In this document: positions 756-42,254 of the stretch, piece by piece
Numbering within the stretch: the first letter of the stretch is position 1
How the letters are laid out: every line of letters starts with the position of its first letter
DNA from: Marinifilaceae bacterium
GTDB lineage: Bacteria; Bacteroidota; Bacteroidia; Bacteroidales; Marinifilaceae
Direction: 5' to 3'
DNA: 48,721 nucleotides
NCBI GenBank assembly: GCA_016936255.1
Contig: JAFGYE010000101.1
Coordinates: 1-48,721, forward strand
Made by a program: the position numbers and the translations under genes
Notes under the pieces: model-generated
Databases searched by the model: none
What the model was told of the DNA's origin: nothing
The model's input: the letters and a program-made list of their open reading frames with translations, nothing else

Positions 756-3456
756 GGTTACTATTAATATCGACCCTCACAGTATCCAATGCAGGATTTA
801 CACAAGGAACAATTGGTTGCGCACTTAGCTCTATATCAATAAATCCATTTAAGATATCAGCACTACCAGGTGTATAAGTAGGATTCAAAATTCCAGTATT
901 GTCAAAAAAACCATCCCCTAGACTTCTCCAGATAAATGAAGATTCATTGCTTACAACACCGCTCAAACTTGCTGTCCCTGATTCACAAATGGCAAGATCT
1001 GAACCTGCATCAGCAACTACATGCTGAATAACTTCAACCGTTACATCTAATGGAATCTCAGATAATTTATACATACTAATACCATCCAAAGCAAAAGCAT
1101 TATCAACACCCGTTGTGCTTGTATTATTGATTTGAACATTTAAAGAACTTGAGCTATCGGAATAAACCAGTCTTTGATATTTATCCCAATTACAAGGAGA
1201 ATTGGTACTAAAGCTTTCGATTACAACACCATTAACAACCAGCTCAAAATCATCAAAACTATCATTCTTAAGATTTGTAATATTTAAAGAAAAGACATAA
1301 TAACTATCCGGATCAACATTTATATCTTGTTCCCAAACTGTATTATTTACAGATCCACCTTCAACAACCATTACATTATCGGGAGAATTTCCAGTAACAC
1401 CTGTACAACTGCTTTTATCTGATCCAAATGCCCGAGTATTACTACTAACCGTATATTTACTTGAACGGCTTCTACACGACCAACTTGAAGTACTTGAACA
1501 ATAGTAGTAGTCACTTTGAAAACCTATATTCCCTAAAGTAAAATCGCCATTATTAACCAATTCCAAAGTCTCATCAATATAGAACACACGTAAATTGTAT
1601 GTTGTTGTTGAATCTGGTGAAACTACGACTCTGGAAGAAAGACCATCTACATCCCAATTAAATAAGAAGTCATTTCCAGCGTAAAGCTCAACAGACTCAT
1701 CTCTACAAATAATGGTATCATTTAAAGTTACATCAGGCACAGTACCCGCAGCACTTGTAATATTGACCATATCCATAGCAGAACAACCATTCATATCAAA
1801 AACACGAACAGCGTACAAACCAGGCTTATCAACATCCAGATATCTGTTTCTTGATCCATCATCCCAAATATAGAAGAAGTGACTTCCTGCATCCAATCGA
1901 ATTACGTCACCTGCGTTCAAAACCTGATCAGGTCCTAAATCAACCATCGGAGGTGGAACCAAAGTCACATTAATATCATCTGTTGCATTACAACCATAAG
2001 AATTTGTGACAGTAACAGAATAATTACCATCACCATACACTATAATCTCTTGTGTTGTTTCACCTGTACTCCATAGATAAGTTGCTCCTGAAATTCCCGC
2101 ATTTAAAACCACTGGATTTCCTGAGCATACTGTACGGTCAGGTCCCAAGTCAATTGTTAGATTTGCATAGAAACCAACATAAACAGTATCAGTCTCAACA
2201 CAATTAAAAGAATTTGTCACTTCAACAGAATAGGTTCCGGCTGTTGACACTTCAATGGTTTGGGAAGTTTCCCCTGTATTCCAAGAATAAACTGAACCTG
2301 CATTCCCCGCATCTAAAATAACATTTCCACCACCACAAGATGCCTGATTATCACCAAAACCAATAACTGGAACAGGATTCAGATTAAGAGTTAAAAAATC
2401 AGAGACAGCTCCGCAAGGAGAATTCGAATTAGCTGTCGCTGTAAGTATTACACTGCCAGTGGCTGCATCATTACTTCCCGGAGTGTAAGTAGAATTAACA
2501 TTTGAAGGATTAGAAAAAGTACCATCACCTGAAGTTGACCACAAAAAACCTGTTTGGTTGGAAACTGCTGCACTCAAACCTGCAGTTTCATTACCACATA
2601 TAGTAATATCTGAACCCGCATCAATCATCGCAGGTTCAATTACTGTAACTGTTCTGCTGTCCGGCACTTCAACCAAAGGATTAAAAGAAATACCATCCAA
2701 GGCATAATCGTTACCACTTCGGATTAAATTTTTATTTACAATTGATATTTCAATAGATGTTTTTGTACCCGAATACCACAAAGAGTAAAACTCTTCCCAG
2801 TTACAAGTCAATCCAGCACTAGGTTCAATATAATCCCCCATTAAAACTCCATCAATCTTAAATTCCAATCGAGCCGGATTGGTTGGATGAACATTTGCAG
2901 CCCAAGTAGAAAATGCATAATATTGATTCGGATTTACCGTAATCGTCTGGCTCCACACAACTACATCTTCATCAGGAGCACCATTAACAATCAGCATTTT
3001 ATCCGGACTATTTCCTGTATGTCCGCTGCAAGGAGAAAAATTAGCGTGATATGCCTGAGGATTGCTGTCAACAGCATATCTTCCCTCCATCCACAAAGAT
3101 TCATTATCGGAATGGCTAGCTGAAGACAAAACAGGATCAGGACAATAGATATATTCACTATAAAAGCCAGTATTCCCAAGATCAAATTCACCATTGGAAA
3201 TTAACTCAGTTCCTGTATCCGGAACAAAGACACGAAGATTGTATGTGGTTGTTACTGCCGGAGAGACACTAATTGCAGATGAAAGTTGTCCTGTACTCCA
3301 ATTGTACATGTATGAACCTGTTTGTGCTTCTAAAATAACAGATTCACCAACACAAATAGTTGTATCATTAACTGGTCGTACAATTTGTGCTGTTCCAGAA
3401 TAATAACTAAATCCTATAATTATCGTAACACCAATAAGCTGTAGAAATCTTTTCAT
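1..3456 (-). CDS. Giant secreted modular adhesin, N-terminal 1152 residues (gene runs off the left edge)
   Basis: The frame is open from the ATG at 3456 to base 1 with no stop, so this is a partial gene missing its C-terminus. Residues 1 to about 23 form a signal peptide ending near TAQ. An Ig-like segment follows, then a beta-sandwich, lectin-like block (about 84-262, containing NGEF and LDGISF) and a segment with the STSGDGTF and TYTPGS patterns common in Bacteroidota surface proteins. Two Ig-like repeats come next. A second copy of the lectin-like block lies at about 632-802, followed by regular 70-residue repeats to the edge, each with a YLWxTGETxQ core and a conserved Cys near NGC. Such proteins are usually exported by the type IX system through a C-terminal domain, which is outside the window. 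Adhesion or glycan binding is inferred from architecture. Coding is certain; the exact role is not. Confidence 0.9.
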   Translation of the reverse strand, partial: MKRFLQLIGVTIIIGFSYYSGTAQIVRPVNDTTICVGESVILEAQTGSYMYNWSTGQLSSAISVSPAVTTTYNLRVFVPDTGTELISNGEFDLGNTGFYSEYIYCPDPVLSSASHSDNESLWMEGRYAVDSNPQAYHANFSPCSGHTGNSPDKMLIVNGAPDEDVVVWSQTITVNPNQYYAFSTWAANVHPTNPARLEFKIDGVLMGDYIEPSAGLTCNWEEFYSLWYSGTKTSIEISIVNKNLIRSGNDYALDGISFNPLVEVPDSRTVTVIEPAMIDAGSDITICGNETAGLSAAVSNQTGFLWSTSGDGTFSNPSNVNSTYTPGSNDAATGSVILTATANSNSPCGAVSDFLTLNLNPVPVIGFGDNQASCGGGNVILDAGNAGSVYSWNTGETSQTIEVSTAGTYSVEVTNSFNCVETDTVYVGFYANLTIDLGPDRTVCSGNPVVLNAGISGATYLWSTGETTQEIIVYGDGNYSVTVTNSYGCNATDDINVTLVPPPMVDLGPDQVLNAGDVIRLDAGSHFFYIWDDGSRNRYLDVDKPGLYAVRVFDMNGCSAMDMVNITSAAGTVPDVTLNDTIICRDESVELYAGNDFLFNWDVDGLSSRVVVSPDSTTTYNLRVFYIDETLELVNNGDFTLGNIGFQSDYYYCSSTSSWSCRSRSSKYTVSSNTRAFGSDKSSCTGVTGNSPDNVMVVEGGSVNNTVWEQDINVDPDSYYVFSLNITNLKNDSFDDFELVVNGVVIESFSTNSPCNWDKYQRLVYSDSSSSLNVQINNTSTTGVDNAFALDGISMYKLSEIPLDVTVEVIQHVVADAGSDLAICESGTASLSGVVSNESSFIWRSLGDGFFDNTGILNPTYTPGSADILNGFIDIELSAQPIVPCVNPALDTVRVDINSNLNLNLGSDQDICQGNTISLDAGYVGASYLWNTGETTQTITVSTSGNYSVVVADANGCSGTDDINITVHPNPIVDLGADQEECNGNNIMFDAGHPGSTYLWSTGETLQGILVTTSGNYSVVMTDANGCSAADDANATIHPNPIANLGADQETCARGTITFDAGNAGSTYLWSTGETTQTISVSTSGNYSVTVTNANGCSASDDANATTHPNPTVNLGADQVICAGGTITFDAGNVGSTYLWNTGETTQTISVS

Positions 3457-8637: not shown

Positions 8638-8742
8638 TAATTTTGATCATTAAAATGAAACGCCCATGTAAAAAAACTACACACAAGAGAATGAGTGTAA
8701 TTTGGGAGTTCCATATGGCAAACAGAAACAAATAATAATCAT

Positions 8743-41323: not shown

Positions 41324-41998
41324 TTAGTTTGTATCGGAGTAAGTGTAATGCCCAATAATGGGAAATTCAAATAAACAATCCTCAATTATCTGACCAGCGC
41401 CAATGTTGTGCACTATTAGGAAGCGTTTGCCATCTCTGGATTTTTTATTAATTACGATACCAATGTGTGTAATTGCACCGCCTAAATTCCAGCAAACAAT
41501 ATCGCCGGGAGAATAATCAATGGAATTTTGACTTAATGGTTTCTCCTGTCCGTTACGCTCAAAAAATTTCATCAGGTTGGGTACTCTTCGGTGATCAATA
41601 TTGGTATCGGTATGTTTCAACCCCCAAATGTCCGGATACAAACTAAAATTGGCTTTCATCTGTTTATAATTTTTATTTTATGGTCAGATCGAACTTACCA
41701 TATAATCATCTCCCTGTGTGTCAAAATCGCTCTGATATGGACGTTTCATATCCTCATGAACCTCCTTCTGCAAATCGATTCCCAATTTTCGGTAAGCACG
41801 AATCACAACATCAGTGCAAACGCCTCTATCCGAAGGAATATCTCCATTTGGATAAGGAATTGAAAAATAGCTGGGATCGTAAATAACTCTTTGCTGGGTT
41901 AGTTGCAAGGCGGCATCGGTTAATTGCTCAGGAAATGTTTGTGCAAAACCAACTCCTCCAACAACAAAGAGTAAAACTGTGAATAGAAGTTTTTTCAT
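41324..41998 (-). pseudogene. DUF1287 gene interrupted by an 84-bp element
   Basis: The two halves of a DUF1287-family protein lie in the same frame. The first half (41998-41744) has a signal peptide ending at GFAQ, then IPYPNGDIPSDRGVCTDVVI and GIDLQKEVHEDMK. The second (41659-41324) resumes with MKANFSLYPDIWGLKH, NIDHRRVPNL and GDIVCWNLGGAITHIGIVIN. The Cys of GVCTDVV and the His of THIGIV fit an NlpC/P60-like papain-type site. Between them are 90 bp, an 84-bp insert plus a second ATGAAA, carrying in-frame TGA and TAA stops. Removing them gives an uninterrupted 194-residue protein of normal family length. The gene is broken unless the insert is removed or bypassed. Confidence 0.85.
41660..41743 (-). 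mobile_element. 84-bp miniature element (copy A) inside the DUF1287 gene, flanked by ATGAAA repeats
   Basis: The insert is bounded by ATGAAA on each side (41744-41749 and 41654-41659). On the minus strand it starts CGTCCAT, contains TTTTGACACACAGGGAGATG and ends AAATTATAAACAG. TATGGT/ACCATA can form an outer stem. Copy B just upstream of the gene has the same start, the same core and the same end. The element is too short to encode a protein and must be mobilised in trans, if at all. Confidence 0.75.
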
Positions 41999-42102
41999 CT
42001 GTTTATAATTTTAAGGTTTTGTCAGATGGTCCCGAAAGCTTTCGGGATTACCATGCTGGAATAATCATCCCCCTGTGTGTCAAAACATCCTCGTCATGGA
42101 CG
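41999..42102 (-). mobile_element. 104-bp miniature element (copy B), directly before the DUF1287 start codon
   Basis: It is flanked by ATGAAA at 42103-42108 and by the ATGAAA that forms the first two codons of the gene. It shares with copy A the left end CGTCCAT, the core TTTTGACACACAGGG-GATGATTAT and the right end AAATTATAAACAG. The outer ATGGT/ACCAT stem encloses a perfect 18-bp palindrome, TCCCGAAAGCTTTCGGGA (42030-42047). Confidence 0.75.
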
Positions 42103-42108
42103 TTTCAT

Positions 42109-42215
42109 GTGTCTGAATTTGTTTTTTATTACCACATAGTCTGTCCCGAACTTGTTTCGGGAGAACTCGTCAACCTAGTCATCCTCGTCTGTGAGAAAAG
42201 TCTTCTCATGGCTCG
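42109..42215 (-). mobile_element. 107-bp miniature element (copy C), in tandem with copy B
   Basis: It is flanked by ATGAAA at 42216-42221 and shares the ATGAAA at 42103-42108 with copy B. The left end is CGAGCCATGA and the right end ATTCAGACAC. A TCCCGAA/TTCGGGA stem with a 5-nt loop lies at 42144-42162 and GAGAA/TTCTC near the left end. Its body is only loosely related to A and B, but its design is the same. Confidence 0.65.
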
Positions 42216-42254
42216 TTTCATCAAATCATTCATGAAAATATAGAGAACACAAAT

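Follow-up and report, generated by a model that had tools for sequence, protein, structure and literature searches.

A repeat with ATGAA ends, found mostly at start codons, splits a DUF1287 gene in a Marinifilaceae bacterium

In IS200/IS605 elements a guide sequence pairs with the cleavage and target sequences, according to the available excerpts of two accounts (PMC6006769, PMC5934647). REP elements of the CGTC super-family, as far as the excerpted description goes, have stems of 8–9 bp, loops of 4–5 nt and a CCA tail, are arranged mostly as head-to-head dimers, lie mostly downstream of genes, and lack a dedicated transposase (PMC3733652). A third kind of repeat, TAACTGA direct repeats located upstream of start codons, is reported for Beggiatoaceae, Cyanobacteria and five Bacteroidetes (PMC4679880). 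Our literature search, whose range lies outside most subscription journals and bioRxiv, returned no mobile repeat anchored at start codons.

Bacterial insertions are usually tolerated between genes. Here we analyse a 48,721-nt stretch of a Marinifilaceae bacterium (contig JAFGYE010000101.1, assembly GCA_016936255.1), below called the window, in which a DUF1287 gene on the minus strand is split by a short insert. The insert belongs to a repeat with about 80 copies in this genome, and two further copies adjoin the start codon of DUF1287 itself, a context beyond that given by an earlier sequence-only reading of the locus. The repeat is present in high copy number, ends in ATGAA, has empty counterpart sites in related genomes, and contains a hairpin and a guide whose pairing with the ATG end is conserved. 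It is highly probable that the gene was split by a mobile, ATGAA-anchored repeat, of which the insert is one copy.

The split gene and its uninterrupted relatives

The element together with both ATGAA copies spans window positions 41655–41749 (Table 1). The sequence-only reading had described an ATGAAA-flanked insert dividing DUF1287, and this description holds with slightly shifted boundaries: the flanking repeat is ATGAA(A), and an 85-bp interior plus one ATGAA adds a net 90 bp. The first ORF reads ...VHEDMK, continues with 19 insert-encoded residues and then stops, while the second begins ATGAAAGCC and is translated as MKANFSLYPDIWGL.... The Pfam DUF1287 profile of 163 positions is divided accordingly, with positions 2–62 matching the first half and 58–163 the second. 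An apparent signal peptide (judged by eye) is found in the first half only, and the Cys/His pair that we take to belong to an NlpC/P60-like fold is distributed over both halves, so the split DUF1287 is probably inactive.

Table 1. Positions of the split gene, the parts of the inserted element and the other copies of the repeat in the window
Feature	Positions	Strand	Basis or remark
First half of DUF1287	41684–41998	−	104 aa, 19 residues contributed by the element
Second half of DUF1287	41324–41659	−	111 aa, own ATG
Element interior, 85 bp, between the two ATGAA copies within DUF1287	41660–41744	−	sequence; absent in five congeners
Left ATGAA, on the upstream side in gene direction, encoding Met-Lys of DUF1287	41745–41749	−	sequence
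Right ATGAA, opening codons of the separated second half	41655–41659	−	sequence
Hairpin left arm, CCATAT on the gene strand	41735–41740	−	pairing list
Hairpin right arm, ATATGG on the gene strand	41698–41703	−	pairing list
Guide GTTCGATCTG (majority of copies GTTCCATNTG)	41685–41694	−	complementary to right-end CAGATGAAA, partly to left ATGAAAC
A/T-rich tail, directly abutting the right ATG	41660–41684	−	sequence
Second copy, with an additional CCCGAAAGCTTTCGGGA palindrome, abutting DUF1287's own start codon	41999–42103	−	BLAST and profile
Third copy, divergent, in tandem upstream of the second	42109–42216	−	pattern match; outside the 81 profile matches
Fourth window copy, ending at the ATG (8743) of a 572-aa ORF	8660–8742	+	pattern and profile

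Searching the genus with the second half of the gene revealed an open DUF1287 frame of 198–227 aa in G001, G002 (Labilibaculum euxinus A4), G003, G004 (L. manganireducens) and G008 (Labilibaculum sp. K2S); the remaining genomes of the genus gave no match (G005) or a weak partial one (G006). When the locus was aligned across seven genomes, the element was present in the window genome and in G007, which belongs to the same species, and absent at the identical point in the other five. The empty site is GATATGAAAG in G002, G003, G004 and G008; in these four it contains ATGAAA, where G001 has ATGCAA. From 281 loci found by name, 80 orthologues were kept and one was dropped at a contig edge; all 79 readable ones (three of them from the same genomes as G002, G004 and G008) are open across the insertion point and for 30 codons upstream of it, and 50 of the 79 carry ATGAAA at this point. 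Both comparisons had been suggested by the sequence-only reading together with the proposal that the uninterrupted join is ancestral; they bear the proposal out, and support an insertion that would have entered an ancestrally whole DUF1287 gene. The third window copy, upstream of the gene, is present in G007 and G002, and is shortened to one hybrid unit in G008.

The second half had also been described as undecayed, which is true for its own genome and fails for G007. There, the second half differs from that of the window genome by four nonsynonymous and three synonymous codon changes, while the first half (254 nt) is identical. Three of the four nonsynonymous changes are private to G007, and two affect near-invariant residues; the changes include Gly52Arg (Gly in 78 of 80 relatives), Ala88Ser (Ala in 70 of 80) and Tyr105Cys (Tyr in 80 of 80). 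Though small, these numbers point to early decay of the second half under relaxed constraint.

A repeat family positioned at start codons

BLAST with the insert region found at least 46 places in the own genome among the best 40 of 79 candidates, and a profile search found 81 matches; the sequence-only profile (R1) was built from 38 of 41 pattern-found copies with their ATGAA ends excluded. A single, unique insertion is thereby ruled out. All nine Labilibaculum genomes, own included, contain the family, with from at least 8 to at least 144 matches each among the best 150 candidates. Across the bacterial family, 24 of 56 genomes had matches, and these represent 7 of 17 genera. High copy number is confined to Labilibaculum: eight re-searched genomes from outside the genus have 2 to 15 matches each. 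Copies measure 80–122 bp from ATGAA to ATGAA. At one place in G003 (C13; L117 1211–1613) four units are arranged head to tail, and the last three are identical at 97 bp, indicating that units multiply by tandem duplication too.

Several further observations concern the spread of the family. Some genes that look orthologous between different genera are each preceded by a copy (L241 and L032; L246 and L020; L255 and C27:55134), which may reflect long retention, shared transfer or repeated insertion. One copy searched against phage and plasmid collections had no match, and viral contigs gave no exact pattern match. Rfam 15 yielded no match at the gathering score for four element loci, and two sub-threshold hits at chance level in the window stretch. 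Among the matches read, no copy carried a gene as an autonomous parent might.

The right end is ATGAA in 78 of the 81 own copies. The script recognised 76 of these ends, omitting five copies, two of which are ATGAA by eye. Of the 76 scripted ATGs, 63 start an ORF of 60 aa or longer and 10 a short one, mostly within a tandem copy; the remaining three belong to neither class. With the ATGAA-blind profile, ATG[AG]A was found at the right end in 70 of the 75 own copies and in 83 of the 84 from relatives, followed by an ORF in 58 of the 70 and 52 of the 83, respectively, the remainder being largely tandem units. Thirty copies from five other genera gave 20 open ORFs of at least 60 aa, six short ones (a class that includes L252, a wrong pick) and four copies missed by the pattern; by eye, L232 among the missed copies ends in ATGAGA, and L233 and L242 have ATGAA on the other strand.

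This placement was compared with the background of ATGAA sites. Genomic stretches totalling 97.8 kb contain 418 such sites, 23 at ORF starts, 304 inside ORFs and 91 elsewhere, so that ORF starts make up 23 of the 114 sites outside ORFs. The 62 non-tandem copies tallied by hand for this comparison comprise 57 at gene starts, one at a leader peptide, three others and one internal; the ORF limit was 60 aa for copies and 100 aa for the background, and the background stretches contain copies themselves. Judging by the background counts, the start-codon pattern is due neither to chance nor to simple loss of intragenic insertions.

Seven further sites were aligned with relatives, and in five of them the element is missing exactly at the start codon. 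Four are empty in G001: C72:61620, C120:7270–7543 (three units), C72:49251–49454 (two units, with a slightly diverged flank) and C16:13695. The fifth, C16:23557, is empty in G002. At the other two, C72:51967 and C120:17647, the relative also lacks the element, but its flanks are diverged. ATGAGA instead of ATGAAA is found at three of the five empty start-codon sites, all in the more distant G001; either the sequence changed in G001, which would itself protect the site, or the target is looser than ATGAA. Different copy types occupy C16:23557 in the window genome, G008 and G004, the last with a tandem pair, an arrangement suggestive of repeated insertion at a single start codon.

Some sites have an additional structure. 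L017, L026, L027 and L037 are operon junctions, at which the left ATGAA provides the TGA stop of the upstream ORF and the right ATGAA the start of the next gene. At C72:49251 of the window genome (G000; L095 about 1130–1250, minus strand) two tandem copies lead up to the ATG of a Phe-rich ORF of 26 aa, MKTVFFKSWFFIFFFF..., which is conserved in G001, G002 and G004 and looks like a phenylalanine attenuator leader peptide.

The DUF1287 target is an internal Met-Lys ATGAAA, so that a start codon is not required for insertion. This makes the split gene an informative exception: the ATGAA sequence alone suffices. A second intragenic copy (L274 629–718, in contig C20 of G004) has a net length of 89 bp, and the frame is lost; it lies in a VOC/glyoxalase-like ORF, whose second piece shows weak similarity to the Glyoxalase family (E 0.016, under the cut-off). 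Altogether, frames are open on both sides in 7 of 145 tested copies. These are the DUF1287 insert, counted in each of two genomes, L274, L039 (a doubtful case), two tandem units and a single start-codon site for which the empty form is known. The distance from ATGAA to ATGAA falls into all three classes modulo 3 (0/1/2), with counts of 25/18/19 in 62 own copies and 15/31/35 in 81 copies from relatives. The multiple-of-three length noted by the sequence-only reading is real for the DUF1287 copy. Given these lengths and the frame-shifting 89-bp copy, we infer that frame-keeping by the 90 bp in DUF1287 is due to chance.

Element anatomy and possible origins

Copies share a layout of hairpin, guide at its 3′ foot and A/T-rich tail, with CAT, CAG or CAC preceding the ATG. 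The hairpin arms are 6–7 bp long and separated by 31–36 nt. The guide is readable in all but 5 of 153 copies. Its variable base is complementary to the base preceding the ATG in 53 of 66 own copies (10,000 shuffles: mean 26.8, maximum 41) and in 77 of 83 copies from relatives (shuffle mean 59.3, maximum 70), the latter being partly orthologous, taken from top matches and not independent. Complementarity is maintained via A-T, C-G and G-C pairs. Besides the right end, the guide can pair with the left ATGAAAC, and in L020 the two pairings are mutually exclusive. On the left, target side the observations point both ways: T precedes the ATG in 59 of 75 copies of the CATATG class (guide base A) versus 6 of 17 of the CATCTG class (guide base C; p 0.0009), in line with pairing, but the G that the guide predicts before the left ATG in the CATCTG class is found in 2 of 17 copies only.

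On average over 63 own copies, the hairpin part folds better than shuffled sequences (mean z −1.63), with z above 0 in six of them. The DUF1287 copy itself folds no better than its shuffles (z −0.19), and an RNAalifold consensus for 38 aligned copies contains no pair. In the second and third window copies (41999–42103 and 42109–42216) and in several others, a nested palindrome (CCCGAAAGCTTTCGGGA or CCCGAAACAAGTTCGGGACAG) replaces the sequence between hairpin and guide. The element also contains a spliceosome-like GTAAGT...CAG, which we regard as coincidence.

We propose that the insert is a copy of a non-autonomous mobile repeat, which consists of hairpin, guide and A/T-rich tail and lies between two copies of ATGAA. 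At the usual site the old ATG would come to open a short upstream ORF, and the gene would retain an ATG behind the A/T-rich leader of the element; such insertions would be tolerated because the ATG stays in the right place for the gene, now with the element's leader. In DUF1287 the same event, at an internal Met-Lys codon pair, would have produced two ORFs, each with an ATG. Of the insertion with target duplication put forward by the sequence-only reading, the insertion stands; duplication is adequate as a description, and an ATGAA copy borne on the element end fits equally. Since the family lies almost exclusively at start codons and preserves the ATG, many genes are preceded by a shared structured leader.

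By analogy, the repeat might move as folded single-stranded DNA, its guide choosing ATGAA targets in an IS200/IS605- or REP-like manner, a plausible reading that we hold tentatively. If the guide does choose the site, this would be natural DNA-guided targeting with a guide longer than that of IS608 and a recognisable biological target. A further step, possible and distinctly speculative, would be an element that seeks start codons: its guide would read ATGAA in single-stranded DNA, each insertion would swap a gene's leader for that of the element, and 80–140 genes per genome would come under one mobile and possibly switchable translation leader, in which the guide pairs with the old or the new ATG. 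The same guide pairing may serve both DNA-level targeting and RNA-level hiding of the start codon.

Among Y1-transposase loci scanned for the element, one weak match (18.7 bits) was found in 33 and none in 14 more; the underlying survey had 52 matches, seven of them outside the scan. The Y1 genes that were read carry other flanking repeats, not the ATGAA element. Five of them (L327, L331, L332, L335 and L336) encode proteins of about 176–184 aa with NHVH or NHLH and YIHNNP or YLHNNP, and are flanked by palindromic repeats of their own, which belong to the CGCACGA/TCGTGTGG type in all but one case; they resemble subclass 2.6 in the excerpted text of PMC6006769.

Conservation of the pairing between guide and start-codon end, the two mutually exclusive pairings of L020 and the copies preceding apparently orthologous genes in different genera would all be expected of a cis-regulatory RNA leader selected at many genes, in which case the copy in DUF1287 would be a stray. 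The guide would then act as a two-state translational switch, either hiding the start codon in a hairpin or pairing with the upstream ATGAAAC instead. However, presence of the element varies between close species at five of seven sites, the downstream genes are unrelated by eye, the stops of the upstream ORFs are scattered, and Rfam recognised nothing at its gathering score; we regard this explanation as conceivable but doubtful. Leader function does not preclude mobility, and both may hold together.

Alternatively, copies might have spread without transposition, by template switching or gene conversion of 5′ leaders in which the ATGAA common to gene starts would serve as microhomology. Such exchange would account for ATGAA as the sole constant at the ends, for variation in tandem unit number and for the lack of a cognate transposase among the scanned Y1 loci. 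Yet it explains poorly why 80–140 copies per genome keep a hairpin and guide, or how insertions arose inside DUF1287 and the VOC-like ORF, where no leader exists to exchange, and we consider it unlikely.

The sequence-only reading also raised a reversible switch, in which precise excision via the ATGAAA repeats would restore DUF1287 in a fraction of the population. Ordinary homologous recombination requires repeats longer than 6 bp. The insert is present in both genomes of the species examined, the window genome and G007, and the second half shows signs of early decay in G007; no evidence for a switch was found, and despite the perfect short direct repeats, the exact empty sites in relatives and the sealing of the donor upon IS200/IS605 excision noted in the excerpted PMC5934647, we judge it very improbable. 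As for removal of the 90 bases from RNA or their bypass by ribosomes to yield a single DUF1287 protein, likewise raised before, the multiple-of-three length and the second half intact in its own genome are outweighed by copy lengths in all three classes, the frame-shifting 89-bp intragenic copy, start codons as the normal downstream neighbours of copies and the decay in the sister genome, making it scarcely credible.

Comparison with described repeats

The proposed mobile repeat has features in common with several described systems. Like classical MITEs, it is small, non-autonomous and multi-copy, with a short duplicated target; unlike them, it has no terminal inverted repeats, and it has a fixed target sequence and a fixed orientation to genes. 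No inverted repeat links the two ends of the DUF1287 copy, and end pairing in L020 and L022 is confined to the self-complementary CATATG. This absence of terminal inverted repeats joining the ends disfavours a classical MITE.

TAACTGA repeats also lie a few bases before the start codons of unrelated genes, but they are heptamer arrays, and hairpin, guide and demonstrated empty sites do not appear in the excerpted description (PMC4679880). REP elements with RAYT transposases (GTAG and CGTC super-families), as portrayed in the available excerpts, are likewise short, hairpin-bearing, many-copy and chromosomal. Copies of our repeat begin ATGAAACGTC, resembling the CGTC tag of CGTC REPs in the excerpt of PMC3733652. 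Unlike in CGTC REPs, loops measure roughly 30 nt or longer, arrays are exclusively head-to-tail (among those read) and copies terminate at start codons. Identity with CGTC REPs was rejected on stem, loop, dimer arrangement and location, despite the CGTC-like tag in many copies.

With IS200/IS605 elements (IS608, ISDra2 and non-autonomous derivatives), as far as the excerpted accounts describe them, the repeat shares a subterminal hairpin, no terminal inverted repeats being seen, a short fixed target on one side and a guide, which in our repeat pairs with the ATG end, the observations on the target side being mixed. It differs in that the copies seen have no transposase gene inside or beside them, and in its target, ATGAA, which is nearly always a start codon. 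By the same partial accounts, IS200/IS605 elements have one hairpin per end and a tetranucleotide guide located 5′ of the hairpin foot, whereas our repeat has a single hairpin and a guide of about 9 nt at the 3′ foot. If the start-codon-seeking reading were true, the repeat would be a natural counterpart of the laboratory-built IS608 variants with extended guides.
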